Assembly: GCA_017521605.1 (NCBI GenBank) | Contig: JAFXCD010000045.1 | Location: 248,001 to 312,000, forward strand | Source of the DNA: Lachnospiraceae bacterium | GTDB taxonomy: Bacteria; Bacillota; Clostridia; Lachnospirales; Lachnospiraceae | DNA: 64,000 nucleotides | Reading direction: 5' to 3' | In this document: positions 8,252 through 57,966 of the stretch, in pieces | How positions within the stretch are numbered: the first letter of the stretch is position 1 | Layout: each line of letters starts with the position of its first letter | The notes under the pieces: model-generated | Told to the model about the DNA's origin: nothing | Seen by the model: only the letters and a program-made list of their open reading frames with translations | Database searches by the model: none | Translations under genes and position numbers: made by a program

Positions 8252-9475
8252 ATGAATTTAGTAGACCGTTTTATAAAATATGTACAGATTGATACACAGT
8301 CCGATGAAGCAACAGGCACATCTCCCAGTACAACAAAACAGCATAATTTGGCAAAACTTCTGACTAGAGAACTGAAAGAAATAGGCGCTGAGGAGATTTA
8401 TTATGACAAAGAATATTGCTATATATATGCAACGCTTCCTGCCTCGGAAGGATATGAAAATGCTCCGGTAATCGGTTTTATTGCACATATGGACACAGCA
8501 CCATCCATGAGTGGTACAAATATAAAACCAAGAATTGTAGAAAAATACGATGGAACAGATATATTATTGAACAAACTTCAAAATATTGTTTTAAGAGTAT
8601 CCGAGTTTCCGGAACTCTCAAACTATATTGGTCAGGATTTAGTGGTAACAGATGGTACAACCCTTCTTGGTGCCGATGACAAAGCAGGTATTGCAGAAAT
8701 CATGACATTATCAGAATATCTTATGAGGAATCCTGATTACAAACACGGTAAAATTCGTATCAGTTTTACTCCGGATGAAGAAATAGGTTGCGGACCGGAT
8801 CATTTTGATGTTGAATTATTTGGGGCGGATTATGCGTATACAGTAGATGGTGGTGCGTTAGGTGAGCTGGAATTTGAAAATTTCAATGCTGCTGGTGCCA
8901 AAGTTACCATACATGGTTGTAATGTACATCCCGGTTCTGCAAAGAACAAAATGAAGAATTCTATATTGATTGCACAGGAATTCCATGGTCTGCTACCTGT
9001 TGAGGAAAATCCTATGTATACTGAAATGTACGAAGGTTTTTACCATTTAGATAACATAGAAGGTACTGTAGAAGAGACTAAGCTGGATTATATTATTCGT
9101 GATCATGATATGATGAAATTCTTACAAAAGAAGGAACTGTTTAAACAAATCGGTGAATTTTTAAATAAAAAATATGGTTCGGGCACAATAGAAATAGATA
9201 TGGGTGATTCCTATTATAATATGCGTAAAATGATAGAGCCTCATATGTATTTGATTGATTTTGCTAAGGAAGCTATGATAGAATCAGGTATTGAACCTAT
9301 TATTACACCTATTCGTGGTGGTACAGATGGCGCCAGATTGTCCTATATGGGACTTCCTTGCCCCAATTTATGCACTGGTGGTGAAAATTTTCATGGAAAA
9401 TATGAGTATATATCAATTCAGTCCATGGAAAAAACAGTGGAATTATTGATAAAGCTTGTTAGCAAGTTTGTTTGA
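8252..9475 (+). CDS. pepT: Peptidase T (tripeptide aminopeptidase)
   Basis: M20-family cytosolic zinc aminopeptidase removing the N-terminal residue from tripeptides. 407 residues, the family length. Zinc-ligand and catalytic motifs in order: GFIAHMDTAPSM, TTLLGADDKAGIAEI, SFTPDEEIGCGPDHFD, YTVDGGALGELE and the C-terminal NLCTGGENFHGKYEY. GAGG lies close upstream of ATG 8252. The coding end overlaps the 5' extension of the next gene, and the two are probably co-transcribed. Confidence 0.95.
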   Translation: MNLVDRFIKYVQIDTQSDEATGTSPSTTKQHNLAKLLTRELKEIGAEEIYYDKEYCYIYATLPASEGYENAPVIGFIAHMDTAPSMSGTNIKPRIVEKYDGTDILLNKLQNIVLRVSEFPELSNYIGQDLVVTDGTTLLGADDKAGIAEIMTLSEYLMRNPDYKHGKIRISFTPDEEIGCGPDHFDVELFGADYAYTVDGGALGELEFENFNAAGAKVTIHGCNVHPGSAKNKMKNSILIAQEFHGLLPVEENPMYTEMYEGFYHLDNIEGTVEETKLDYIIRDHDMMKFLQKKELFKQIGEFLNKKYGSGTIEIDMGDSYYNMRKMIEPHMYLIDFAKEAMIESGIEPIITPIRGGTDGARLSYMGLPCPNLCTGGENFHGKYEYISIQSMEKTVELLIKLVSKFV

Positions 9476-13893: not shown

Positions 13894-15762
13894 GTGGCAG
13901 AATTAACCCCTATGATGCAAAAATATATGGAGACCAAGAAGGAATATCCCGATTGTATTCTTTTTTATCGCCTTGGAGATTTCTATGAAATGTTTTTTGA
14001 TGATGCACTAACTGCATCTAAAGAGCTTGAGATTACTCTCACCGGTAAATCTTGTGGCCTTGAAGAGCGTGCTCCTATGTGTGGTGTGCCTTATCATGCA
14101 GTTGAGGGTTATCTGAACAAACTGGTAACCAAAGGGTATAAAGTAGCAATTTGTGAGCAGGTAGAGGATCCCAAGCAGGCCAAGGGACTTGTAAAGCGTG
14201 AAGTAACCCGAATTGTTACTCCGGGTACCAATTTAAATATGCAGGCACTGGAAGCCACCAAGAATAATTATATTATGTGCATCACCTATACGCCAACAAA
14301 AATTGGTTTAGCAGCCGCAGATGTAACCACAGGCGATTTTTATACTACGGAGGTTGAGGATGGACGCAGACTTATGGATGAGCTGATGAAGTATTCTCCT
14401 TCTGAAATTATTTGTAATGATGCTTTTTATGTGAGTGGTTTTGATATTGCAGATCTTCGTAATCGTTTACAAATGGCCATTTCGACCATAGAATCCTATT
14501 ATTTTGATGATGAAGGTTGCGAAAAGTGTATTATGCGTCACTTTGGCGTAAAGAGTCTCATTGGTTTGGGTCTGGAGGACTTTCCGGTTGGAACCATTGC
14601 TGCCGGTGCATTACTTCAATACTTATTAGATACACAGAAAAATGATTTGGTACATATTAATCATATTCAATCTTATCTTACCAGCAAATACATGCTCTTA
14701 GACAGTTCCACAAGACGTAATCTGGAGCTTTGTGAGACCTTAAGAGAGAAACAGAAGCGTGGTTCACTACTTTGGGTACTTGATAAAACCAAAACAGCCA
14801 TGGGTGCACGTACTTTACGTAACTATATTGAACAACCATTATTAAATAAGGCTGATATGGAGGCGCGTTTAGATGCGGTGGATGAACTTTCCAAAGATTC
14901 TGTATCCCGTGATGAAATTCGAGAATATCTAAATCCTATTTATGATTTGGAACGTTTGTTGAGTAAGGTAACCTATAAAACAGCCAATCCCAGAGATTTA
15001 ATTGCTTTCCGTAATTCTTTAGAGATGCTGCCCCATATTAAAACCGTATTAAGAAGCTTCCAAAAAGAACTTCTAACCGGTATTTATGAAGATATGGAAA
15101 GTCTTGACGATATTTATGCTCTTATAGATGCAGCTATTGAAGAAGAACCACCTCTTTTGGTGCGTGAAGGGGGTATCATAAAGGATGGTTTCAATGAAGA
15201 TATCGATATGCTTCGTAATGCTAAGTGTGACGGTAAACAGTGGTTAGCTCAATTGGAAGAGGAAGATAGAGAACGTACCGGTATTAAAAATCTGAAGATT
15301 AAGTACAATAAGGTATTTGGCTACTATTTTGAGGTAACCAATTCCTTTAAGGATATGGTTCCGGAAGATTATATACGTAAACAGACCCTTGCTAATGCAG
15401 AGCGATATACCACTCCTAAGTTGAAAGAAATGGAAGATACCATCTTAAATGCAGAGGAAAAGCTTTATACTTTAGAATATGATATGTTCTGTGAAATTCG
15501 CGATATCGTTGCAGCACAATTGGAACGAATTCAACGCACAGCCAAAGCTATAGCAAGATTGGATGTTTTTGCCTCCCTTTCTTATGTAGCAGAACGCAAT
15601 CATTACGTACGTCCAAAATTAAACGAGAAGGGCATCATTGATATTAAGGATGGGCGTCATCCTGTTGTGGAGCTTATGATAGATCACGATATGTTTATTG
15701 CCAACGATACCATGCTGGATAGTAATAATCATTTAATTTCGGTAATCACACAGATACTATGA
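13894..15762 (+). CDS. MutS N-terminal part (mismatch-binding, connector, lever and clamp)
   Basis: 622 residues from GTG 13894, with GCGAGGAA upstream; an ATG three bases earlier is out of frame and stops at once. Contains the mismatch-wedge motif GDFYEMFF (Phe30-Tyr-Glu32), connector, lever and clamp regions, and the start of the ATPase domain up to [10 protein letters not shown], where TGA 15760-15762 ends it. It lacks the Walker A glycine, so this fragment alone should not hydrolyse ATP. The stop is one base from the ATG of the second half. Confidence 0.8.
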
Positions 15763-46656: not shown

Positions 46657-47715
46657 TTATTTTTCACGTAACTTCACTTTATTGGCCGCCATTCTTCGGT
46701 GCATATCTGCCTGAGCTGCATAGTGCTTACGGGTTGTATTTACATCATTATGTCCTAACACATCTGCAACCAGGTAAATATCTTCTGTTTCCTGATATAA
46801 TGATGTACCATAAGTACTTCTTAGTTTGTGAGGTGTGATTTTCTTTAAAGTGGTAACTTTTGAAGCATACTTTTTTACTAGATTTTCCACTGAACGCACA
46901 GCGATTCTACGATTTTGCAATGAAAGAAATAAAGCATTTTCATGACCTTCCTGCGGAACAATATATTCACGTTCTTCAAAATAATCTAACAATGCGATTT
47001 CAACTTCTTCACCAAAATATACTACCGCTTCCTTTCCACCTTTTCTTAAGATTCGAATACCATTAACTTCAAAATCCACATCATTTAGGTCTAACCCTAC
47101 GCATTCAGACACTCGTATTCCTGTCCCAAGCAGGAGAGTAAGAAGTGCCAAATCCCGTGTTTTCGTTTTTTCATGGAACTGTGCTTCCTTCTTTGTTAAT
47201 TTATCACCATTTTCTACCAAATCCAGTAATGTGGCAACTTCATTTGGCTCTAAGCGTATAATATCATGCTCATGTTGTTTCGGTACCGGTACCAGAGAAG
47301 CCGGATTAGTTTTTATCTTTTCGTTTTCATAAAAATATTTATAGAAGCTTCTTAATGATGAAATTTTACGTTTTTTACCTCGTTCTTCATTTGTTATTTC
47401 CTTACCATCCTTAGAATAGTAGCTCATAAAGTCCAGATATTCCAAAATATCATCCCTGGTAATCTGATCTAATAGTTCTATATTATAATCTGTTATTGGC
47501 TGTTTGGCACATATTGGATTATTTTCATGCAAAAATTCAAAAAAAATGCGCAGATCATACGCATAAGCCAGTCTGGTACGTGTTGAAGTATATTCTGTAA
47601 TTCCTCTAATATAATCCTTACAAAAAAGAGGGAGAGTATCCAAAATATCTCTTAAACGAACTATATTATTCCTATTTTGTTCTTCATGATAACTCAACTG
47701 TTTATTTGTTGCCAA
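46657..47715 (-). CDS. Tyrosine recombinase, XerS-like
   Basis: 352 residues, size of XerS. An N-terminal SAM-like DNA-binding domain (about 30-170) is followed by a catalytic domain with Arg in LLLGTGIRVSECVGLDL, Lys in the ILRKGGKEAVVYF hairpin, HKLRSTYGTSLY (His-x-x-Arg), LGHNDVNTTRKHY (His and the nucleophile Tyr). No integrase-type N-terminal arm, no phage genes beside it and a housekeeping neighbour, so chromosome-dimer resolution is likelier than an integrated element. Its start overlaps the TtcA-like gene end by 14 bp. Confidence 0.85.
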   Translation of the reverse strand: MATNKQLSYHEEQNRNNIVRLRDILDTLPLFCKDYIRGITEYTSTRTRLAYAYDLRIFFEFLHENNPICAKQPITDYNIELLDQITRDDILEYLDFMSYYSKDGKEITNEERGKKRKISSLRSFYKYFYENEKIKTNPASLVPVPKQHEHDIIRLEPNEVATLLDLVENGDKLTKKEAQFHEKTKTRDLALLTLLLGTGIRVSECVGLDLNDVDFEVNGIRILRKGGKEAVVYFGEEVEIALLDYFEEREYIVPQEGHENALFLSLQNRRIAVRSVENLVKKYASKVTTLKKITPHKLRSTYGTSLYQETEDIYLVADVLGHNDVNTTRKHYAAQADMHRRMAANKVKLREK

Positions 47716-50098: not shown

Positions 50099-50548
50099 AT
50101 GAAATTTGTAATACAACGTGTCCAACATGCCAGTGTTAAAGTAGATGGGCAAATAATTGGTTCAATTAATAAGGGACTATTGGTTTTCATTGGAGTTACA
50201 CATACTGATACAAAAATGGTTGCGGATAAAATGATTAAAAAATTAGTAAACATGCGTATCTTCAAAGATGAAAATAATAAAACAAACTTAGCTTTACATG
50301 ATGTAAATGGACAACTATTATTAATTTCTCAATTTACATTATATGCTGATTGCAAAAAAGGTAATAGACCTTCATTTGTAAATGCCGGTTCTCCTGATAT
50401 AGCAAATGATTTATATAAATATATTATTAAAAGCTGTAAGGAATATGTACCTGTAGTTGAAGAAGGTAGCTTTGGAGCAGATATGAAAATAGAGTTACTA
50501 AATGATGGACCTTTTACAGTCATTCTTGATTCAGATGATTTATATTAA
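50099..50548 (+). CDS. dtd: D-aminoacyl-tRNA deacylase
   Basis: 149 residues: MKFVIQRVQHASVKVDGQIIG, the catalytic region LLISQFTLYADCKKGNRPSF, and AxFGADM as EGSFGADMKIELLNDGPFTVILD. Frees D-amino acids from mischarged tRNA. Start 7 bp after the transporter stop. The Tn7-like element lies 135 bp downstream. Confidence 0.95.
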   Translation: MKFVIQRVQHASVKVDGQIIGSINKGLLVFIGVTHTDTKMVADKMIKKLVNMRIFKDENNKTNLALHDVNGQLLLISQFTLYADCKKGNRPSFVNAGSPDIANDLYKYIIKSCKEYVPVVEEGSFGADMKIELLNDGPFTVILDSDDLY

Positions 50549-50611: not shown

Positions 50612-50655
50612 CAACCAACTATTCGCAAAACACAAGTTTAACGAATAGTTGGTTG
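50612..50655 (+). terminator. Inverted repeat / terminator after dtd
   Basis: Perfect 14-bp stem CAACCAACTATTCG / CGAATAGTTGGTTG with a 16-nt loop, then TATAATTT. Poor T-run, so termination is plausible but not certain. It lies outside the transposon, 28 bp left of its end. Confidence 0.6.
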
Positions 50656-50677: not shown

Positions 50678-50682
50678 GTTAT
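50678..50682. repeat. Target-site duplication, left copy (GTTAT)
   Basis: GTTAT immediately before the left TGT. The identical GTTAT is at 57139-57143 immediately after the right ACA. Five base pairs is the Tn7-family duplication length. Confidence 0.88.
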
Positions 50683-50730
50683 TGTACATTAGGAAAACTT
50701 TCAAAATGTTTTTGGTAAAACTTTCAAAAT
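50683..50730 (+). repeat. Transposon left end: terminal repeat plus second TnsB-type site
   Basis: The terminal repeat 50683-50707 begins TGTACATTAGG and continues AAAACTTTCAAAAT. A second copy lies directly behind it at 50707-50730, containing GGTAAAACTTTCAAAAT (50714-50730). The same 17-mer occurs inverted at the right end, so these are probably TnsB binding sites. Confidence 0.88.
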
Positions 50731-50868
50731 AATACCACTCACTTTATCTTCATACATTTCCATATATTGAATATAAATAAATCATAACAATGTTTATTCA
50801 TAAAAACACCGCTGAAGACCGTGTTTCAGAAAAATTCAATAGAGAAAATCACAGCTAAAATATTATAA
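50731..50868. other. Transposon left-end interior, no gene seen
   Basis: AT-rich DNA between the left-end repeats and the nuclease-gene terminator. Contains a short dyad ACACCGCTGAAGACCGTGT (50806-50824). No open frame with a ribosome site. Possible further degenerate TnsB sites cannot be assigned by eye. Confidence 0.4.
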
Positions 50869-50902
50869 AAATAGTCTTGTAGCAAAAGCAACAAGACTAT
50901 TT
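50869..50902 (-). terminator. Terminator of the cargo nuclease gene
   Basis: Perfect 12-bp stem AAATAGTCTTGT / ACAAGACTATTT with a 10-nt loop. On the minus strand it begins three bases after the nuclease stop and is followed by TTTTATAAT. Confidence 0.88.
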
Positions 50903-50905
50903 CAA

Positions 50906-51688
50906 TTAAATCAACTGTAATAAATCAGATTCGGCTTCAGTGTACTCGTCTTCTGTGTAATCTAAATCCAAAATATCTTCTTTAGAATAACCCTTTTTAA
51001 TCATTTTTACAATTTTTTCGACATTATTCTTCTTTACCTCAATATCAATATACTTTTGCATTACTTCACACACGATACGAACACCTCCTTCTGTTTCTTT
51101 CAGTCGTTTTACTTCCGATGACAATGCTGGAAATTTACTGTTTTTAACTTCCTTCTTAGTGAAACATGACATTAATTCTGCAATATCTGTTCCATCGTCA
51201 ACTACAGTATTCACAAAAATTTCATGCAATCCGTCATCGATGATTTCCCCTGTCTCTCTTAGGACTTTCTCAACATGATATATTGTCTTATTTCCCTTTA
51301 AAAAGTCAAACTCGGAAATATAAACAATATAGAGTTCAAGTACATCCTCAAATGTTGTTCCAGGCTCCGAATCCTTTACCGTAATGCTAGAAGCATTGAA
51401 TCGCGCTCTCTTTAAATGATTATCATTATCAGAACGCTGTACTTCAATATTTACTTTAGCACCACTTCCTAGTACACATAAAGCATCCAGCCTTACAGAT
51501 CTACCGTACAGATTTCTCTCATCTGACTGCGTAACTACACTGGTAACAATCAGGTTTTCATCCTCCATAATAGTCCGCAACATCTCCTGACAAACTTCAA
51601 CATTTTGAGCCAAGACCTCAAAAAAAACATCATCAATAGGTCTTAGGCCGCGTACTTTCTCCTTTTTCTGCTGTTCTGTCAATCCCAT
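50906..51688 (-). CDS. Rpn-like PD-(D/E)XK nuclease family protein (transposon cargo)
   Basis: About 260 residues from ATG 51688 (MGLTEQQKKEKVRGLRPI), with AAGGAG nine bases upstream; an in-frame start at 51757 would read through the leader. N-terminal GLRPIDDVFFEVLAQN, then the nuclease core YGRSVRLDALCVLGSGAKV and NIEVQR, i.e. D-x(n)-E-x-Q of the PF12784/Rpn group. Members are called PD-(D/E)XK nuclease family transposases. Rpn proteins are DNA nucleases that raise recombination. The acidic C-terminal tail (YSKEDILDLDYTEDEY) is common in clostridial copies. Carried inside the Tn7-like element; whether it aids the element, defends the host or is a passenger is unknown. Confidence 0.85.
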   Translation of the reverse strand: MGLTEQQKKEKVRGLRPIDDVFFEVLAQNVEVCQEMLRTIMEDENLIVTSVVTQSDERNLYGRSVRLDALCVLGSGAKVNIEVQRSDNDNHLKRARFNASSITVKDSEPGTTFEDVLELYIVYISEFDFLKGNKTIYHVEKVLRETGEIIDDGLHEIFVNTVVDDGTDIAELMSCFTKKEVKNSKFPALSSEVKRLKETEGGVRIVCEVMQKYIDIEVKKNNVEKIVKMIKKGYSKEDILDLDYTEDEYTEAESDLLQLI

Positions 51689-51735
51689 AATACAACTCCT
51701 TTCCCTGCATACGCAGTATAAAATATATTCATAAA

Positions 51736-51860
51736 CAGGGAAAGTCTTTAAGGACATCCCTGATTACGTTCCAGGGACTATCCCTATTATCGGCAGATAA
51801 GACATCTGCCCTCCTTCCTTCACTCTCTCTTACGAAAGCTCTCTGCAGAATTACTTCTGC
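51736..51860 (-). other. Hairpin-rich leader of the cargo nuclease gene
   Basis: Four well-paired hairpins follow one another: CAGGGA/TCCCTG with GTC/GAC (51736-51762), AGGGA/TCCCT (51773-51785), GGCAGAT/ATCTGCC (51792-51810) and GCAGAA/TTCTGC (51845-51860). The stretch is clearly more GC-rich than its surroundings. It would be the 5' UTR of the nuclease mRNA. Such packed structure without coding capacity suggests a structured RNA or a remnant of a smaller mobile unit. No known RNA family is claimed. Confidence 0.55.
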
Positions 51861-52006
51861 TACACTGTCGTACTGGAAATCCATTCACCAAAAAGGAGAA
51901 GAATACCCAGCAGACTCTTTAAATCATATATAGTATTTACATTATTATATTATCATATTATATTAAAAGTTGCAATGATACTGGTAAAATATATATTTTC
52001 ATATGT
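51861..52006. other. Gap between nuclease leader and tniQ, no gene seen
   Basis: AT-rich after 51910, with TATAAT-like strings on the minus strand that could be the nuclease promoter. No terminator with a clear T-run is visible for the tniQ transcript. Confidence 0.35.
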
Positions 52007-53377
52007 TTATAGGTGTATTTCTTGTTCGCATCTATAAATTTCCACTCTATTCTTATAATAAAAAACCACATACTGAGGGACCTTCCAAATCTCAGGTGTT
52101 AGTGTATTAATAAACTTATACTCTAATTTGATAATATTATTTAGCATCATATACTCTGCTTGATTTATTAAATTGTATAATAGGTCTTTCATTATAGGAT
52201 AAACTATATATTGAGAAGCTCTTGTAGGACTATATTTATAAAATTCCGTTAATTCATGAAAATAGCCTAGCTCATTATATGTTGATAATCCAAAGCTCAC
52301 TTGTGACGAAGTCTTTTTCCAATGTTTACTGTTGGTTGTAAATATATTATCAGCAGAAGCTGCACCGGTTACAGCTTGATATGCAAATGCTATAGCATAT
52401 TTATGTACATTCTTTTTATTTATCACAGTATCGTGTCTTAGTTTATTTAAACAAGATATTGTGGCTTTCCAATCATTTAGATCAGTATAGAAATCGCGAA
52501 TTAACTCACTCATAATTTCCATGAGACACCAACCAAGGGAATCTCCTTTTAAAATGTTTTGATTTTCACAATCTTTTTTTATGAATAGCTCTTTGTGATA
52601 ATTTACTGCATTATCAAAACTCCCTTCTAGCAAATTATTTTTCCACCAGCCTTCTTCTATGACATATTTCGCATAACATTTCATAAAATTATCTACTAAT
52701 AAAGTATTATCGTTTTCAATATTCTCTTTGTTTATCGTTCTAATACACTCACATCCCTGCAGACTTATTCTATCTTGTAACAGAAATATTTTTTGATATA
52801 ATCTATTTGTACTATCATAGCACCTATTATAATGGATATTTTTAATAGGCATAAGAAAAATATAGCTACTTGAAATAATCTCATTTGAAGCCCTTCTTTG
52901 AATATATTGTGTTAATTCTTCTTTGATTTTCTGGTTCTTAATGAGATATTCTGTTTTTACCTCTGCGAATTCATAGGTACCACTCTGGGAAGCGTTTAAT
53001 TTTTCTTCCGGAATTTCTGTTAGTTTGCAATTATGAAGAAAACAGTAGTCTATTCCTTTTATTTCGTGAAGCAATGAATGATATCCATATTTCATACATT
53101 TTATACACATTTTATGTGCTTCAATTCTACCAATATTAGTAAAATTTGATGCATATAAATGCTTGTATTGACCATTAAAATGTGGCATATGTATATAAAA
53201 GTGTTTTGGCAAATCTCCACATGTTATAGAGTGTCTAAGGGTTATATTATGTCGAACTGTTGACCATGACAAACCATTAAGATAACAAAACTTTGCAATT
53301 CTGCTCCACCTAGATTCATAAGGTAGACAATATTCATCTTTCCATGTGTAAGATACTATTATATTATTAAGTCTCAT
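52007..53377 (-). CDS. TniQ/TnsD-family target-selection protein
   Basis: 456 residues. The N-terminal TniQ signature is YCLPYESRWSRIAKFCYLNGL. A zinc finger at about 91-115 has C91-x2-C94 in MCIKCMKYGYHSLLHEI, then C112 and H115. A long helical C-terminal half follows, with little similarity I can place. TnsD-type proteins bind a fixed chromosomal site and recruit TnsC; length falls between short TniQ (about 400) and Tn7 TnsD (508). Last gene of the tns operon, 37 bp after tnsC. No second TniQ or TnsE is present, so this protein probably sets the only target pathway. Confidence 0.88.
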   Translation of the reverse strand: MRLNNIIVSYTWKDEYCLPYESRWSRIAKFCYLNGLSWSTVRHNITLRHSITCGDLPKHFYIHMPHFNGQYKHLYASNFTNIGRIEAHKMCIKCMKYGYHSLLHEIKGIDYCFLHNCKLTEIPEEKLNASQSGTYEFAEVKTEYLIKNQKIKEELTQYIQRRASNEIISSSYIFLMPIKNIHYNRCYDSTNRLYQKIFLLQDRISLQGCECIRTINKENIENDNTLLVDNFMKCYAKYVIEEGWWKNNLLEGSFDNAVNYHKELFIKKDCENQNILKGDSLGWCLMEIMSELIRDFYTDLNDWKATISCLNKLRHDTVINKKNVHKYAIAFAYQAVTGAASADNIFTTNSKHWKKTSSQVSFGLSTYNELGYFHELTEFYKYSPTRASQYIVYPIMKDLLYNLINQAEYMMLNNIIKLEYKFINTLTPEIWKVPQYVVFYYKNRVEIYRCEQEIHL

Positions 53378-53414
53378 ATATTATCTTTGTATTTATATTA
53401 TTGCTTACAACAAT

Positions 53415-54386
53415 TTACATTTGTGATATCACAAAACCACTATCTATAATACTTTGCTTCCATTCTTCTATTGTTGGATGGTACATTTCATTTCCAAACA
53501 CACCATAACGTTTTAAACAATATAAAACTGTATCCATAAAATACTTCATTAAGATATGATCTGAATGAATCTTATTCTCACTTTTTACACACTCAAATGC
53601 TTTCCATAAATCCGTAGCGTATGCCGATAATCGCATGCCATCCTGATATGCAAGAGGAAAGAATAGTTTTGACAATATTATTTCATTGTCGAAACCATCA
53701 ATTCTAATTGGTTTATCAATACTAGCCATACATATTGCGGCATCACGTTGATTTGTTATTCCCCAAAATTCAAACTCGTTTACCATAAATCGTAATACAA
53801 TCTGCTTTTTTCCTGCAATAATGTATCCCGACTTTTGTTGTTTTAATTCATCTGTTCCAAAAAGGAAAACTGTAAAAAGTATATCTTGTAAATTTAATTC
53901 ATTATATATATCAATTAACCATACATATTCTTTATCAGAAAGTAGATATGCTTCATCAATAAATAAAATTGCTCTTCGATACTTCGTATCTAATGCATCA
54001 GCAATAATTCTATTTACAAGTCTTTGTCGCATTTGTACCGCCGTTCCTCTATGAGGATCTTCATGTCCAATTGCAGCCAATAAACTAGCATAGAAAGTTT
54101 TTTGCGTAGGTACATGATCCGTTGCTGTAAAAGTATATATTGGTAACTGCAGGCTATACTTTTCTTTAAGATGTGTAGATATGTACCTTATTGCTCTGGT
54201 TTTTCCCACACGAGCTTCACCGTAAACAATAGCACCACAATCATTCATTGAAATCCATTCTTCAACCTTAGTTTGAAGGTCAAGTATTGATTTTGTAGGA
54301 ATTGTATATTGAATAGAGCCTAAATATCTTTCTAATTCGGCAATATCAAATGTTGATTTTTGTAAGAGTTCATTACCTGCAATCAT
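53415..54386 (-). CDS. tnsC: TnsC/TniB-type AAA+ transposition regulator
   Basis: 323 residues. Walker A GAIVYGEARVGKTRAIRYIS (GEARVGKT at about 56-63), Walker B RRAILFIDEAYLL (about 138-149), a sensor-like FLFGTDELKQQKSGY and a C-terminal helical part. Connects the target-bound TniQ with the TnsAB transposase. Its start overlaps the tnsB stop by 4 bp. Confidence 0.92.
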   Translation of the reverse strand: MIAGNELLQKSTFDIAELERYLGSIQYTIPTKSILDLQTKVEEWISMNDCGAIVYGEARVGKTRAIRYISTHLKEKYSLQLPIYTFTATDHVPTQKTFYASLLAAIGHEDPHRGTAVQMRQRLVNRIIADALDTKYRRAILFIDEAYLLSDKEYVWLIDIYNELNLQDILFTVFLFGTDELKQQKSGYIIAGKKQIVLRFMVNEFEFWGITNQRDAAICMASIDKPIRIDGFDNEIILSKLFFPLAYQDGMRLSAYATDLWKAFECVKSENKIHSDHILMKYFMDTVLYCLKRYGVFGNEMYHPTIEEWKQSIIDSGFVISQM

Positions 54387-56284
54387 ATCAATCCTCTCCT
54401 GTATGCTTCTTCAATAGAAAGTGAATCAATTAAATCCATTTCTTCTTTTGTATAAGTAGTTGTGTTATTTACACTAATATCTGGTTTAAATTTAATTGGT
54501 TCTGAAGGAGTCATATTTCTATAATTTTTACCCATTTCACGCTCTGCAATTGCTGATTTTGTTCGTTCACGTCTACTCTTTAACGCATTTTTTCTCAACT
54601 CGTCTTCATATAGCGATAAATCCGGAGAAAATACATTATTAGTTTCTTTATTCCTATTTTTTCGTGCTAGAGCTTCTTTATGCGTCCGTAAAGAATGTGG
54701 TCTTTTCCCCCATTCCCCTGTCGCAATCAGGTTTGCTATAAATACTCCATTTTCATCGTATAAATCTAAATGACTTACATCAGCAGGGTTTATCTCAATT
54801 AAAACCCTTTTGCCAATCATATCCATTGAAATTTTTCTATCATATGCGTGATATTTGGTTCCCAAATATGTAATGTGTGGTTTGCTTCCTGTGGAATAAC
54901 CGCCCCTAAGAATTTTTGCTTCTGTAAAATGTGTTAACTTATCTATATCATAATGCATTGATTCTGGAATTATATTAGGGTACATACCAGCTTGACGTAT
55001 ACGCCTTTCCATCACTTGCAAAGGTGATTGATTTTCAAGTGATGAATGCGCACTATTATTATATTCGGCAATCAGATATTCTAAAAGTTCGCAAATATCA
55101 GTAAATGTAATCCGATACTTAACAGTTTCCTTTTCAGGTTCATTTCTTTTTGTATCATTTATATTACTTCCGGTTGTTCCTGGTAAACGGTGAAATCCTC
55201 CGTTCTCAAGTGTTTTAAAAAATCGCTCTATTATCCCTCTGGTTTCCGGAGTTGCTACAGAGCCAAAGTTTACACTGCATTTCACATTATTTAACAGCTT
55301 ATCTAAAGTATTTTTTGCCAGATGAGATTTGGCATTATCAAGCATAAGCATATCAAAAGTGGCCCATTCAATCTCTGGAAATGCCAATGAAGGAAAGCCA
55401 CCATTTTTAGGATAACTAAAGCCATTATGAGTAAACGCTATTTTTTCATGTGGTACTATTGCATTATGAACTGCCATTAGTATGTCGTATTGATTATAAT
55501 TTTCATATGGGGATATTGAGTATCCTATGATTGTCCTTGTCGCAACATCTATTGCGGCAATAAGCCATGCTCTAGAGGCTGGCATCCTTATTAGTTCTCC
55601 ATGTTCATTTTCTACTTCTACCGTATATAGCATATCAATTTTATGGCCATCAATCTGTATTATTCCATATGGGTTTAATGCTGAGATGTTATTACTTTCG
55701 CCGAAACCAGTGCTTTCAAAACGTTGTCTAATTTCTATGCGTTCTCGCTTAATTGCTTGCTTTTGATTTTCTAACGCCGCCTGTTTTATATATGTATACA
55801 AAATATCATATCCATTATCTTTTAATGTGAATGGATATTCATAATCTTGTATTCCCATCTGTCTGCATTCAGCAACAAATTTGGTGTGTAATGTTCTAAT
55901 TGTCATATTCTTTTCAAGAGTATATTTCTTATCACCAAAATAGTTACCTAAAACAAATTCTTCTAATGACGGATGTTGTAAAAAGAGTTTTTGCAATTTT
56001 CCAATGGTTTTTACATTCTGTTTATTGGGAATAAGCGCTGCATAACCTATTTGTTCCATATTTTTATCAAATAACATACATTTTCTTACATGACGTATCA
56101 CTTCGGAACTTGAAATACCGGTTAGTTCAGATATTGTTTTTAATGAGACACCATCAATATATAAATCTACAGCTTTTTTTCTGTTTTCAAATTTATTGCG
56201 TGATTCTTCTGAAATAGCATCAATTTTAACATTTCTCCATTGTTCTCTATTTAATCTTAGTTCAAGAAGGTCTATTTTTGCCAT
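54383..56284 (-). CDS. tnsB: TnsB-type DDE transposase
   Basis: 633 residues, of the same general size as Tn7 TnsB. An N-terminal helix-turn-helix (about 35-67, LYIDGVSLKTISELTGISSSEVIRHV) is followed by an RNase H-fold catalytic core with Asp212 in IIQIDGHKID, Asp316 in MLMLDNAKSH and Glu353 in RGIIERFFKTLE. A Mu-type beta-barrel follows (YHAYDRKISMDMIGKRVLIEINP) and a charged C-terminal tail for TnsC contact. Binds the end repeats and joins 3' ends to target. Overlaps tnsA by 13 bp. Confidence 0.94.
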   Translation of the reverse strand: MAKIDLLELRLNREQWRNVKIDAISEESRNKFENRKKAVDLYIDGVSLKTISELTGISSSEVIRHVRKCMLFDKNMEQIGYAALIPNKQNVKTIGKLQKLFLQHPSLEEFVLGNYFGDKKYTLEKNMTIRTLHTKFVAECRQMGIQDYEYPFTLKDNGYDILYTYIKQAALENQKQAIKRERIEIRQRFESTGFGESNNISALNPYGIIQIDGHKIDMLYTVEVENEHGELIRMPASRAWLIAAIDVATRTIIGYSISPYENYNQYDILMAVHNAIVPHEKIAFTHNGFSYPKNGGFPSLAFPEIEWATFDMLMLDNAKSHLAKNTLDKLLNNVKCSVNFGSVATPETRGIIERFFKTLENGGFHRLPGTTGSNINDTKRNEPEKETVKYRITFTDICELLEYLIAEYNNSAHSSLENQSPLQVMERRIRQAGMYPNIIPESMHYDIDKLTHFTEAKILRGGYSTGSKPHITYLGTKYHAYDRKISMDMIGKRVLIEINPADVSHLDLYDENGVFIANLIATGEWGKRPHSLRTHKEALARKNRNKETNNVFSPDLSLYEDELRKNALKSRRERTKSAIAEREMGKNYRNMTPSEPIKFKPDISVNNTTTYTKEEMDLIDSLSIEEAYRRGLI

Positions 56285-56943
56285 AACGACACCTCCGTTT
56301 TCAGTGAAAATGGTTGGCTATTTATGTTCATATCTATTATTCCCTTTTCGTACATATAACATAAATGGTCTAACTCAAAGTTAAGTGGTAGTAAATCATT
56401 ATGAGCTAGCTGTTCTATCGTTAATTTATCGCATTGTTTCAGTGCGTTTATTATTCGTGGATTATAAAACATTTCTTCACGAGGAGTATATCTACGAAGA
56501 CGTGCGGCTATAATGTTTGCGTTATTCAAGAAGAACCTTCCTGTTATAATTGTTTTTTCTGTTCTGACAACAAAATCAATGTTGTTGTCTTTGCACCACA
56601 GTTCTTCTCTTCGGATTTGTTCCTGTGAGCGGAGTGCTGCTTCATTAAATCCCTGTAGTTCTGAGTTGTATTTGACTTCTTGTAACTCTTCTCTTCCATC
56701 CCTGTATTTAACCCACATATCGAAAATAGCATGTCTCAACTGGTTATCTTGAATAATTTCTATTTTCAATGGTTGTTCACAAAATTTTTCTACTTCAGGA
56801 TTGATTTCTAAACTAAGAAAATTATAGTATTCTAAATTTGAATAGAAATGACAAATTCTATGTATCTTGCTACTGTATACTGCATAGTAATTGTTTCCAT
56901 AATGTGTACTTCTTGGAATTTCGATTGGTGTTGTGAAATTCAT
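56272..56943 (-). CDS. tnsA: TnsA-type endonuclease
   Basis: 223 residues. Restriction-endonuclease fold with Glu38 (FYSNLEYYNFL), Asp75 (HAIFDMWVKY) and the QEVK motif at 88-91, matching the E-D-K triad of Tn7 TnsA. The C-terminal winged part contains EQLAHNDLLPL. Cleaves the 5' strands so that transposition is cut-and-paste. Shorter than Tn7 TnsA (273). GGGAGAATT lies before ATG 56943. First gene of the operon, nearest the right end. Confidence 0.93.
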   Translation of the reverse strand: MNFTTPIEIPRSTHYGNNYYAVYSSKIHRICHFYSNLEYYNFLSLEINPEVEKFCEQPLKIEIIQDNQLRHAIFDMWVKYRDGREELQEVKYNSELQGFNEAALRSQEQIRREELWCKDNNIDFVVRTEKTIITGRFFLNNANIIAARLRRYTPREEMFYNPRIINALKQCDKLTIEQLAHNDLLPLNFELDHLCYMYEKGIIDMNINSQPFSLKTEVSLWQK

Positions 56944-57077
56944 ATAATTCTCCCATTTTTATTTTTTAACAAATACCAATGTTTATTTGCATCTTTTTCC
57001 TAATTATACTTATATTTTGATATTATTGCAAATTATATTGGCAAAATAATCAAAAATGGTTTATAATTATAAATATT
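56944..57077. other. Right-end interior with tns promoter region
   Basis: No gene. On the minus strand a TATAAT-like -10 (TATAATTAGG, around 57002-57011) lies upstream of tnsA and is the likely operon promoter. Imperfect AT-rich strings may include degenerate TnsB sites. Confidence 0.4.
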
Positions 57078-57100
57078 AAAAGCCCAATATATGGGCTTTT
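57078..57100. terminator. Hairpin just inside the transposon right end
   Basis: Perfect 9-bp stem AAAAGCCCA / TGGGCTTTT with loop ATATA; symmetrical, so it can terminate on either strand. It lies between the terminal repeat and tnsA and would block read-through from the neighbouring gene into tns. Confidence 0.82.
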
Positions 57101-57113
57101 AAACTATATCAAT

Positions 57114-57138
57114 ATTTTGAAAGTTTTACCAATTTACA
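57114..57138 (-). repeat. Transposon right-end terminal repeat
   Basis: Reads ATTTTGAAAGTTTTACC then AATTTACA on the plus strand, the inverse of the left end with three mismatches in 25. Only one clear TnsB-type copy here, against two at the left. Confidence 0.9.
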
Positions 57139-57143
57139 GTTAT
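57139..57143. repeat. Target-site duplication, right copy (GTTAT)
   Basis: Same five bases as 50678-50682. Lies 10 bp beyond the stop codon of the 57153 gene. Confidence 0.88.
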
Positions 57144-57152
57144 CCTAATTTC

Positions 57153-57383
57153 TTAGTTATCCTTCAATGCTTTAATCTTGTCGATTAATTCTAAGTCATC
57201 CTGATTAATCTTTATATTCGCATGTATTTCTTTGCCTTCCGGTGTTATTACTTTACATTCCAATACAGTTCCTTCCTCCAAACCATTTTCTGCAATGGCT
57301 GTTATAAACTGCATAAACTTAGGATGATTATCTTGGAATTTCTCCAAAGCTGATTTCATGGATAATATTGCCATAGGGTTCAT
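57153..57383 (-). CDS. Small conserved-looking protein, candidate attachment-site gene
   Basis: About 76 residues from ATG 57383 (MNPMAILSMKSALEKFQ), with AGGAGG upstream; the 57431 start adds residues overlapping the Nudix gene. Two predicted parts: an amphipathic helix (MKSALEKFQDNHPKFMQFITAIAENG) and a beta hairpin with TVLECKVITPEGKEIHANIKI. No known family recognised. Runs after the Nudix gene on the same strand. Its 3' end faces the transposon right end 14 bp away. Confidence 0.8.
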   Translation of the reverse strand: MNPMAILSMKSALEKFQDNHPKFMQFITAIAENGLEEGTVLECKVITPEGKEIHANIKINQDDLELIDKIKALKDN

Positions 57384-57405
57384 AATTTTATACCTCCTCA
57401 TTATT

Positions 57406-57966
57406 TTACTCATATATGGAACTATTTGCAAAGAAAAAAGCTGCCATTTGTGCTCTGGAACTGAATTCCTTCGTATCTAATAGCTTTTTAACTTCTTCCT
57501 TGCTATAAAATGCCGCCTTTATATCCTCATTATCAGAGGTATGATCCGATATTTCACCTTCCACATCAGCAAATGCTATGTAGGTTTTTACATCGGAAAT
57601 GGCTACTGCTGCGTAGGAAGGTGGGAGAATAGTGCGTATTTGCTTCACTCTAAGTCCCGTTTCCTCAAATAGCTCTCTTTCAATACACTCTTCTATAGTC
57701 TCTCCCTCTTCTATCATGCCTGCACAGAGATTATAAATATGTTTATTTACACCCATACGAAACTCATGCAATAATAAGAGCTTACCTTCATATATAGCAA
57801 CAATGGATACACCACTGGCGGATTTTCCTAAATCTTCCGTTGTTTTTAGTTCTTTTCGACTGACAATCTCGAATTTTTTCTCTCTTCCTGCCTTATTCAG
57901 GTACGTTAATTCGTAATTCTTCAAATATTTTCCATCTTTTACTTTTTCTAACTTAATGAATTTCAA
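57406..57966 (-). CDS. Nudix hydrolase (ADP-ribose pyrophosphatase-like)
   Basis: About 187 residues. Preferred start TTG 57966 (KFIKLEKVKDG), preceded by AGAAAGG; the in-frame 57996 ATG overlaps the RNase gene and would include the ribosome site. The Nudix box is GMIEEGETIEECIERELFEE followed by TGL, complete. N-terminal YELTYLNKAGREKKFEIVSR and LLLHEFRMGV resemble the NudF/ADP-ribose subgroup. Substrate not proven. Confidence 0.88.
   Translation of the reverse strand: MKFIKLEKVKDGKYLKNYELTYLNKAGREKKFEIVSRKELKTTEDLGKSASGVSIVAIYEGKLLLLHEFRMGVNKHIYNLCAGMIEEGETIEECIERELFEETGLRVKQIRTILPPSYAAVAISDVKTYIAFADVEGEISDHTSDNEDIKAAFYSKEEVKKLLDTKEFSSRAQMAAFFFANSSIYE

Follow-up and report, generated by a model that had tools for sequence, protein, structure and literature searches.

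Tn7-like elements elsewhere use genes (glmS, comM, parE) or tRNA as their sites. Which site is used by the element described here? The window, a stretch of 64,000 nucleotides from a Lachnospiraceae bacterium, contains a Tn7-like element of 6,456 bp (positions 50683 to 57138). Its cargo end lies 35 bp from a candidate dif, the dimer-resolution recombination site of most circular bacterial chromosomes. We consider it very probable that the element is a cut-and-paste Tn7-like transposon, apparently intact, with chromosomal dif as its attachment site.

The element has exact ends and a full set of Tn7-like genes

The features of the element and its neighbourhood are listed in Table 1. The termini read TGT from 50683 and ACA up to 57138. 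The terminal inverted repeats extend over 28 nt at 86% identity. The initial annotation had set both ends to the base, and these ends were borne out; 22 of the first 25 bases agree and GTTAT is present on both flanks. Copies of a TnsB-type repeat occur twice at the left end and, clearly, once at the right. The inner repeat motif, searched for with 0 mismatches, is found three times in the 3.81-Mb assembly and each time at this element. As a control for end-finding, the right target site duplication (TSD) was shifted by 10 bp. TnsA and TnsC are both present at 74 of 80 related loci; among these, inverted repeats of at least 15/24 were then found in 2 pairs.

Table 1. Positions in the window of the element, its genes and the adjoining host features.
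Feature	Position	Strand	Basis
Host tyrosine recombinase (XerS-like), candidate enzyme of dimer resolution	46657-47715	-	NCBIfam XerS
Host dtd gene, upstream of dif	50099-50548	+	domain search
dif-type site AACTATTCGCAAAA-CACAAG-TTTAACGAATAGTT, candidate host target outside the element	50617-50650	+	conserved arms
Left TSD, GTTAT	50678-50682		sequence read
Left terminal inverted repeat (TGT...), cargo/TniQ side, dif-proximal	50683-50710	+	repeat listing
Inner repeat, copy 2, probable internal TnsB site	50712-50730	+	repeat listing
Cargo: Rpn family PD-(D/E)XK nuclease/putative transposase, 283 aa	50906-51757	-	Pfam PDDEXK_2
TniQ/TnsD-type target selector, 456 aa	52007-53377	-	family alignment
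TnsC AAA+ ATPase, 323 aa	53415-54386	-	AAA_22, E 3e-14
TnsB DDE transposase, 633 aa	54383-56284	-	solved TnsB chains
TnsA endonuclease, 223 aa	56272-56943	-	Pfam PF08722, E 3e-14
Right terminal inverted repeat (...ACA), TnsA side	57111-57138	-	repeat listing
Right TSD, GTTAT	57139-57143		sequence read
Host 92-aa ORF (orf92) at the right end	57153-57431	-	homologue adjoins dif in G021

As single sequences, TnsB and TniQ both scored under the Pfam cut-offs. The element's TnsB matched solved TnsB chains (E 2e-10), and its candidate catalytic residues, D212, D316 and E353, are invariant in 7 aligned sequences. The single TniQ sequence reached only E 0.054 with Pfam TniQ and did not match solved chains. 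An alignment of the TniQ family matched solved TniQ chains (E 3e-8), and 20 of its 40 members matched Pfam TniQ. The zinc-type residues C91, C94, C112 and H115 are invariant in the 40 aligned members. In relatives, the TnsC encoded downstream of TnsB is 28-57% identical to that of the element. The sole cargo gene encodes an Rpn-type nuclease, matching Pfam PDDEXK_2 (E 3e-10) and, under the cut-off of that model, NCBIfam TIGR01784 (E 1e-9).

A heteromeric TnsA and TnsB transposase, TnsC, TniQ, TGT/ACA ends and a 5-bp TSD together identify the element as Tn7-like. There is no ORF to spare for a Cas effector, no CRISPR array among the listed repeats and no Rfam match in the window. Judged by its predicted genes, the element is not a CAST. 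The first reading of this DNA had described a minimal, complete, non-CRISPR Tn7-like transposon, with visible catalytic residues and full-length TnsA, TnsB, TnsC and TniQ. Domain and family matches, protein lengths similar to those of relatives, the invariant TnsB residues, and the content of four tns/tniQ genes and one cargo gene in 6,456 bp agree with this description. The machinery appears to be intact, and the element would be expected to transpose.

The cargo end faces a candidate dif

The dif-type site has a 28-bp core (50620 to 50647), and about 5 kb from it both GC skew and gene strand change over. The site was found in 22 of 38 genomes (reversed control, 0); in 20 of these 22 it occupies one place only. 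Across genera of the order, the arms are conserved nearly letter by letter and the central 6 bp vary. In G006, a single-contig genome of the same genus, the site is at 2,016,949 of 4,078,671, where the skew changes sign. Single occurrence and nearness to the GC-skew shift serve as dif criteria in the accessible part of Kono et al. (2011, PMC3025954). The site described here is about 28 bp long, is an imperfect palindrome with a 6-bp centre, usually occurs once per genome and lies near the skew shift. On the grounds of sequence, copy number and position, the 34-bp site of the window is a candidate dif.

The dif sites of B. subtilis and E. coli were not found in the 337-kb contig of the window (best 21/28 and 20/28, respectively); the genus uses a site other than these types. 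The host recombinase gene at 46657-47715 has XerS as its best NCBIfam model (E 7e-56, under cut-off).

Two other targets were considered and rejected. By analogy with Tn7, orf92 might have been an attachment gene at the TnsA end; this idea was dropped because relatives have dif at the opposite end. The XerS-like gene of the window, read as active, is about 3 kb from the element. XerS-like genes also occur near TnsA in 9 of 80 relatives, all Paenibacillus. All nine are without the usual catalytic motifs in three simple motif checks, and seem to be accessory genes rather than targets.

Related elements adjoin different types of dif

We compared the loci of 80 TnsB relatives. Independently checked dif types lie beside 28 of them, namely 20 Paenibacillus-type sites, 7 Bacillus-type sites and 1 window-like dif; many relatives are akin to one another, and the number of independent insertions is therefore below 28. 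Close dif variants are present at a further 4 of the 80 loci and provisional sites at 2. The check in element-free genomes covered sites other than those of Acetobacterium, L074, L041 and L097. Position beside dif, in a fixed orientation, is a property of the window's element and of many relatives. All 7 Bacillus-type loci share one orientation to the motif, as do 19 of the 20 Paenibacillus-type loci. In L039 (TnsB 47%), site type, side and orientation are all as in the window. Because many relatives in other Firmicutes also adjoin dif, this site seems to serve transposons of this kind as a natural docking place.

The B. subtilis dif was used as an a priori probe. It matched 7 of the 80 loci, L113, L073 and L094 among them, at 23-28/28, and shuffled sequences reached at most 21. 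Assuming one dif per 4.5 Mb, 0.3 such loci are expected at random (P 4e-8). Matches to the Paenibacillus-type site scored 28-32/32 in 20 of the 80 loci, and no shuffle exceeded 22. Of 60 genomes of the genus, 56 have this site once, 1 has it twice and 3 lack it. For 25 of 30 such sites read, there was no TniQ match within 1.5 kb. The Paenibacillus-type site is a host site. A different palindrome, AAGTTCTTGTCC-N8-GGACAAGAACTT, was rejected as the Paenibacillus dif, having 1-22 copies per genome in 12 genomes. The comparison supplies dif candidates for Paenibacillus as well as for Lachnospiraceae and the order to which they belong. In a midpoint-rooted TnsB tree, dif elements lie on both sides of the root; label counts in this tree are incomplete because the dif labels predate recognition of the Paenibacillus site.

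Several loci do not fit. A final scan with four motifs gave no match in 19 of 80 loci despite at least 7 kb after TniQ. One of the 19, L094, is firm by the B. subtilis probe (23/28), two have provisional sites and 16 remain. Of the latter, L053 and L103 are terminus-type and nine have skew of the same sign; some relatives therefore lie elsewhere. At L087 (Cohnella) a Paenibacillus-type site adjoins the element, yet there is no skew switch (+0.029/+0.024), and L088 is ambiguous (+0.097/-0.003). The site at L097 is weak, with 9/11 arm pairs, and the other flank has a stronger palindrome (11/11). L073 has an exact TSD and an inverted repeat of merely 10/25 in register; L102 has repeats of 24/24 and no matching TSD. 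The element at L107 is decayed and the end position at L089 is uncertain. In Butyrivibrio (L045-L051) the elements are nearly identical and the TnsA-end flank differs in each of the seven printed. No dif was found near these elements, and their far ends could not be placed.

Empty sites occur at the level of genes. Thus, dif adjoins dtd in G006 and other relatives from the genus, and in G021 the dif-type site adjoins a homologue of orf92, the small gene bordering the window's element. No TniQ match was found in 40 relatives, including G006 and G021. There was no exact empty-site allele for the window, and no genome found was close enough to align the flank. In Paenibacillus, where an exact empty allele was sought and not found, G1221 and G787 are 94.5% alike outward from the first base of dif. 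On the element side, 15 kb of G1221 are unmatched in 80 kb of G787. Hence, this pair does not provide a simple empty site.

Proposed recognition of dif

We propose that TniQ, alone or with a Xer recombinase on dif, would mark the target. TnsC would be recruited, and TnsAB would insert the element on one side of dif, some dozens of bp away, with the TniQ/cargo end towards dif. Insertion in this way would leave dif whole, and should therefore be harmless.

The distance to dif was determined from the element ends. In nine relatives with an exact 5-bp TSD, the gap between the dif core and the element is 45, 45, 46, 47, 48, 48, 48, 49 or 50 bp. All eight relatives with an exact TSD and an inverted repeat of at least 18/24 are within this group. 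The gap spans 29-81 bp where ends were set without a TSD, and the 35 bp of the window is less than the 45-50 bp of the exact-TSD relatives. In Acetobacterium, three elements that each have a TSD of their own are 48-50 bp from a common dif-like site. We infer that TniQ is the reader of dif. Since the dif sequences of relatives differ widely at nearly equal spacing, we lean towards Xer-bound dif, not bare DNA, as what TniQ reads. There is perhaps an even chance that a large, mostly Firmicutes clade of full Tn7-like elements are dif hunters in which TniQ reads Xer on dif, with a dead XerS-like protein as second reader in Paenibacillus. If so, the elements would be addressed by the machinery that resolves dimers and not by a DNA word, and the same core could therefore follow hosts with unrelated dif.

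The TnsD protein of Tn7 binds glmS. In a similar way, the C-terminal region of TniQ could bind dif DNA or its flank directly, with no role for Xer. This is a real possibility, though less likely than not. No second candidate target selector was seen among the element's ORFs, and the single TniQ of 456 aa is within the range (>400 aa) linked with direct target selection in the available text of Faure et al. (2023, PMC10293859). However, the DNA that separates dif from the element varies among the ten cases compared and among the three Acetobacterium loci, and TSD-set spacing stays at 45-50 bp beside strongly divergent host dif sequences. Moreover, the TniQ proteins of the window and L039 are only ~21% identical despite the shared site type.

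Tn7 TnsE favours the terminus region. A general preference of this kind, TnsE-like for replication ends, would make nearness to dif secondary. Skew at 42 loci was terminus-type in 23 and origin-type in none, which also accords with insertion at dif. Of the 23 terminus-type loci, 18 have a dif site from the set of 32 classed as firm or close; the other five have none, as a terminus preference would allow. Conversely, such a preference is at odds with the nine TSD-set insertions, all 45-50 bp from either dif or a site resembling it, and with the constant orientation to the motif, and the element has no spare ORF for a TnsE. We regard this explanation as very unlikely. Least credible is that the 34-bp palindrome, an inverted repeat 68 bp past the dtd stop, is a mere dtd terminator with the element there by chance, given its conserved arms and variable centre across genera, its single place in most positive genomes, the separation of 1.5-1.8 kb between it and dtd in G005, G009 and G014, and the presence of L039 at the same site type.

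Relation to known systems

Use of dif as attachment site would set the element apart from known Tn7-like transposons; such a site would be of a new kind, since it is not a gene and is not reached by RNA guidance. Tn7 and single-TniQ Tn7-like elements share with the element the order TnsA, TnsB, TnsC, TniQ, TGT...ACA ends with repeated TnsB-type sites, the 5-bp duplication and insertion at a defined distance from a conserved site in the chromosome. Here, the site-facing end is the TniQ/cargo end, unlike Tn7, where the TnsA end faces the attachment site.

Transposons attracted to a site-specific recombination site are also found in the Tn5053/Tn402 family. Members carry TniQ, are without TnsA, form cointegrates, and have a serine resolvase and res. 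Going by a 1999 title from Minakhina and co-workers, they are reportedly drawn to a res site occupied by its resolvase. Their target is plasmid res, whereas the target here would be chromosomal dif; TnsA is present and no resolvase is among the element's ORFs.

The ISAjo2 group of the IS1202 family has been called 'dif site hunters' (Harmer et al., 2023, PMC10132070). According to the accessible portion of that paper, these insertion sequences have a TnsB-like DDE transposase, TGT/ACA ends, a 5-bp TSD and fixed orientation next to dif or pdif, as here. They are 1.5 kb long with one transposase, without TnsA, TnsC and TniQ, and in Acinetobacter lie 5 bp from the XerC arm (PMC10132070), compared with 35-50 bp here. 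Conversely, the element and its relatives, mostly from Firmicutes, have the full Tn7 machinery rather than the single transposase of the IS1202 family. Within the available text of the literature searched, dif hunting is reported only for single-transposase IS1202-family insertion sequences.

The element beside dif connects two separate subjects, the res-site hunting of TniQ transposons and the hunting of dif by insertion sequences with a TnsB-like transposase. It allows a direct test of whether a site-bound recombinase can steer TniQ, which bears on the evolution of target selectors and on programmable insertion at one chromosomal place. The main text of Faure et al. (2023, PMC10293859), in the part available, has 0 mentions of dif, xerC, xerD or xerS. 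That part describes Tn6022-like elements with TnsF, which targets comM; the window's element is without such a gene. In these elements, too, the choice of target is linked to a tyrosine-recombinase fold, and the likeness extends to the nine Paenibacillus relatives with a XerS-like gene near TnsA.

A Tn7-like element with exact ends adjoins a dif-type site

The initial annotation described a Tn7-like transposon with TGT...ACA ends, inverted repeats (IRs) matching at 22 of the first 25 positions, a flanking GTTAT target-site duplication (TSD) and one cargo gene beside tnsA, tnsB, tnsC and tniQ. All of these features, and the length of 6,456 bp, were recovered. The IRs extend to 28 nt with 86% identity. 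Read right to left on the minus strand, the products are TnsA, TnsB, TnsC, TniQ and an Rpn-type PD-(D/E)XK nuclease. Perfect copies of the inner-repeat motif are confined, in the whole assembly, to the element.

Features of the element and the adjoining site (window positions)
Feature	Position	Strand	Remark
Palindrome, dif-type site	50617-50650		28-bp core, 50620-50647
TSD, GTTAT	50678-50682 and 57139-57143		5 bp, both flanks
Tn7-like element	50683-57138	genes on -	6,456 bp
Inner repeat, second copy	50712-50730		left end of the element
Rpn-type nuclease	50906-51757		sole cargo gene

As single sequences, TnsB and TniQ fell below Pfam cut-offs because they are too diverged. TnsB matched solved TnsB chains at E 2e-10, and a 7-sequence TnsB alignment did so at E 5e-19. 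Residues D212, D316 and E353, the putative DDE triad, are invariant across the seven sequences. A 40-member TniQ alignment matched solved TniQ chains at E 3e-8, and 20 of its members have a Pfam TniQ match. No homologue of the cargo gene was detected by BLAST (E 1e-3) in any of 80 related loci. Hence, the nuclease was probably swapped in.

The palindrome beside the element does not resemble a plain terminator; among genus relatives its arms are kept, whereas the 6 bp at its centre are variable. Allowing up to 3 mismatches, AACTATNCGCAAAA-N6-TTTAACGAATAGTT matched 22 of 38 genomes; 20 of these have one such place, and G016 and G048 have two. The reversed motif gave 0 matches in all 38. The remaining 16 genomes, several of them incomplete assemblies, gave no match to the pattern. 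In G006, a single-contig genome of the same genus, the site lies at 2,016,949 of 4,078,671, the point where GC skew changes sign. The Acetatifactor locus L039 (TnsB 47% identical) has its element beside this type of site too, flanked by dtd and a Nudix gene as in the window, and matches the window in side of dif and orientation to it. L039 is also bordered, one base beyond each apparent end, by a 25-bp direct host repeat (8906-8930 and 14409-14433), which gives the appearance of a 25-bp target duplication in place of a 5-bp one. In three genus relatives (G005, G009 and G014), 1.5-1.8 kb of additional DNA separates dtd from dif.

Many related elements adjoin dif-type sites of their hosts

TnsB relatives are sparse; matches occurred in 2 of 397 family, 4 of 392 order and 8 of 398 phylum genomes, the window's own genome being included each time. 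Scanning named genomes yielded 133 confirmed candidates. Our counts rest on the best 80 of these (L037-L116), which are not independent, several being near-copies of one another. Among them, the closest TnsB is from Ruminiclostridium papyrosolvens (51%).

A B. subtilis dif probe, which agrees with the published sequence as far as the available text of PMC3025954 gives it, matched 7 of the 80 loci at 23-28 of 28 positions, in a single orientation to TnsB throughout. Shuffled loci reached at most 21. By chance, ~0.3 such loci would be expected, against the seven observed (one dif per 4.5 Mb, random placement; P ~4e-8). In these Bacillus-type loci dif lies 29-56 bp past the apparent end away from TnsA, that end being TSD-proven only in L073 and L113, uncertain in L089 and part of a decayed element in L107. 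Beyond the ends of L086 and L088, both bounded by exact TSDs, lies ACATATGTATAAAA-TACGGG-TTTTGTG...

This Paenibacillus-type site was found in 20 of the 80 loci at 28-32 of 32 positions (shuffles, at most 22). When up to 2 mismatches are allowed, 57 of 60 genomes in the genus, apparently Paenibacillus, contain it, 56 of them once and one twice; the reversed control gave 0. It is a host site. Thirty of the 58 listed sites were read, and at 25 of them no match to TniQ lies within 1.5 kb; at L172, one of the other five, the match spans only 30 residues. In Acetobacterium, L059, L060 and L068 each lie 48-50 bp away from one and the same dif-like site. Their TSDs (ACTAA, ATAAA and TTTTT) and differing intervening sequences mark them as separate insertions. 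The motifs for Paenibacillus, Acetobacterium and the window all came from element-bearing loci; those for Paenibacillus and the window were afterwards tested on genomes whether or not these carry the element.

In total, 28 of the 80 loci adjoin a site type that was checked without reference to the element; 20 are Paenibacillus-type, 7 are Bacillus-type and one is L039. Four more are close variants (L059, L060, L068 and L074) and two are provisional (L041 and L097). The final four-motif scan listed 31 loci; L094, under its threshold, was counted from the B. subtilis probe. Among the remaining 46, the far end could not be judged in 12 where TniQ is followed by less than 1 kb, nor in 7 with no TniQ assigned. 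Sixteen have at least 7 kb after TniQ and no dif in the motif scan; by skew, two are terminus-type (L053 and L103), nine same-sign and one weak, with four lacking a measurement. Thus, some relatives sit away from dif.

Ten elements have exact 5-bp TSDs, and in these we measured spacing from the 28-bp dif core to the element, counting the TSD. It is 35 bp in the window and 45, 45, 46, 47, 48, 48, 48, 49 and 50 bp in nine relatives. Among the nine, L073 has IRs matching at only 10 of 25 positions in register, and L059, L060, L068, L074 and L097 adjoin candidate sites so far known from element-bearing loci only. For ends placed without a TSD, the gaps are 45 (L094), 56, 33, 29, 41 and 81 bp. The window differs from the relatives by 10 bp, about one helical turn, which is an observation and not evidence of mechanism.

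Two Paenibacillus sequences, L202 (15032) and G787 (3296375), are 94.5% alike on one side, beginning at the first base of dif; on the element side, 15 kb of one have no match in 80 kb of the other. No exact empty-site allele was recovered.

Many of the elements lie at a probable replication terminus

XerS-like genes occur near the window's element and near related elements. Hence, we examined GC skew. Along the window contig, skew is positive until ~44 kb of the window and negative beyond. Stop-to-stop ORFs of at least 200 aa lie on the plus strand in 202 of 224 cases left of this switch and on the minus strand in 31 of 34 to its right (26 of 29 excluding the element). The switch therefore reads as a replication terminus, ~5 kb from the element. 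In single-contig G787, the skew and strand switch coincides with the element.

In 42 relative loci both flanks of the element reach at least 4 kb; by skew, 23 of these are positive-left and negative-right, 0 reversed, 16 same-sign and 3 weak. A firm or close dif site is carried by 18 of the 23. In some dif-bearing loci the element took up the right flank, and the first skew test failed for that reason. What remains of the true flank there is short; its skew is negative in L073, L086 and L089, and close to zero in L088. The right flank of the Cohnella locus L087 is long enough for the test, and its positive skew makes L087 a genuine departure from the terminus rule. At L087 a Paenibacillus-type dif (14681) adjoins the element with no skew switch, which may reflect a dif that has moved, a second site, or replication that is laid out unusually.

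Target recognition and precedents

The machinery, ends, position and orientation of these elements, and their spread across hosts, were observed. In the mechanism that we propose, TniQ would recognise dif, TnsC would bridge and TnsAB would insert the element. We lean to TniQ reading Xer-bound dif, because dif sequences vary by host while the spacing holds, and because 9 of the 80 relatives have, near TnsA, a XerS-like gene that lacks the standard catalytic motifs. TniQ may instead read dif DNA directly, as favoured by its being single and mid-sized, an argument from size drawn from excerpts of PMC10293859. Recognition of Xer-bound dif can be put more boldly: TniQ would read host Xer on dif across a large, mostly Firmicutes Tn7-like clade, with the dead XerS-like protein of Paenibacillus a second dif reader. 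We consider the chances of this evenly balanced. The nine loci, all Paenibacillus (L054, L056, L058, L061, L063, L064, L065, L076 and L077), have the XerS-like gene upstream of TnsA on the opposite strand, 0.4 kb away (1.3 kb in L076). By analogy with TnsF, its product could possibly be a dif-reading adaptor.

The nearest precedents are the ISAjo2-type dif site hunters and the Tn5053 family, reportedly, going by titles, res-site hunters. From the available text of PMC10132070, ISAjo2-type insertion sequences, termed "dif site hunters", share a TnsB-like transposase with the element but, unlike it, are without TnsA, TnsC and TniQ. In the accessible portions of the Benler et al. survey (PMC8649781) and of Faure et al. 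(PMC10293859), the word 'dif' has 0 occurrences. In the accessible text of the literature searched, we found no TnsABC-TniQ transposon reported at dif. Since this was limited to open PMC papers, the negative result is not proof of novelty.

Further repeats and a shared Butyrivibrio element

A Paenibacillus palindrome, AAGTTCTTGTCC-N8-GGACAAGAACTT, occurs in 12 genomes, with between 1 and 22 copies per genome (for example L067 8396, L061 15203 and L095 15732) and may represent paired transposon-end sites or another target. Separately, L044-L051 (Butyrivibrio and one Lachnospiraceae MAG) carry one Tn7-like element in eight genomes, 98.9-100% identical over 5-8 kb, and the outside sequence differs wherever the TnsA end is visible. 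Such near-identity between differing flanks points to recent transfer among species.
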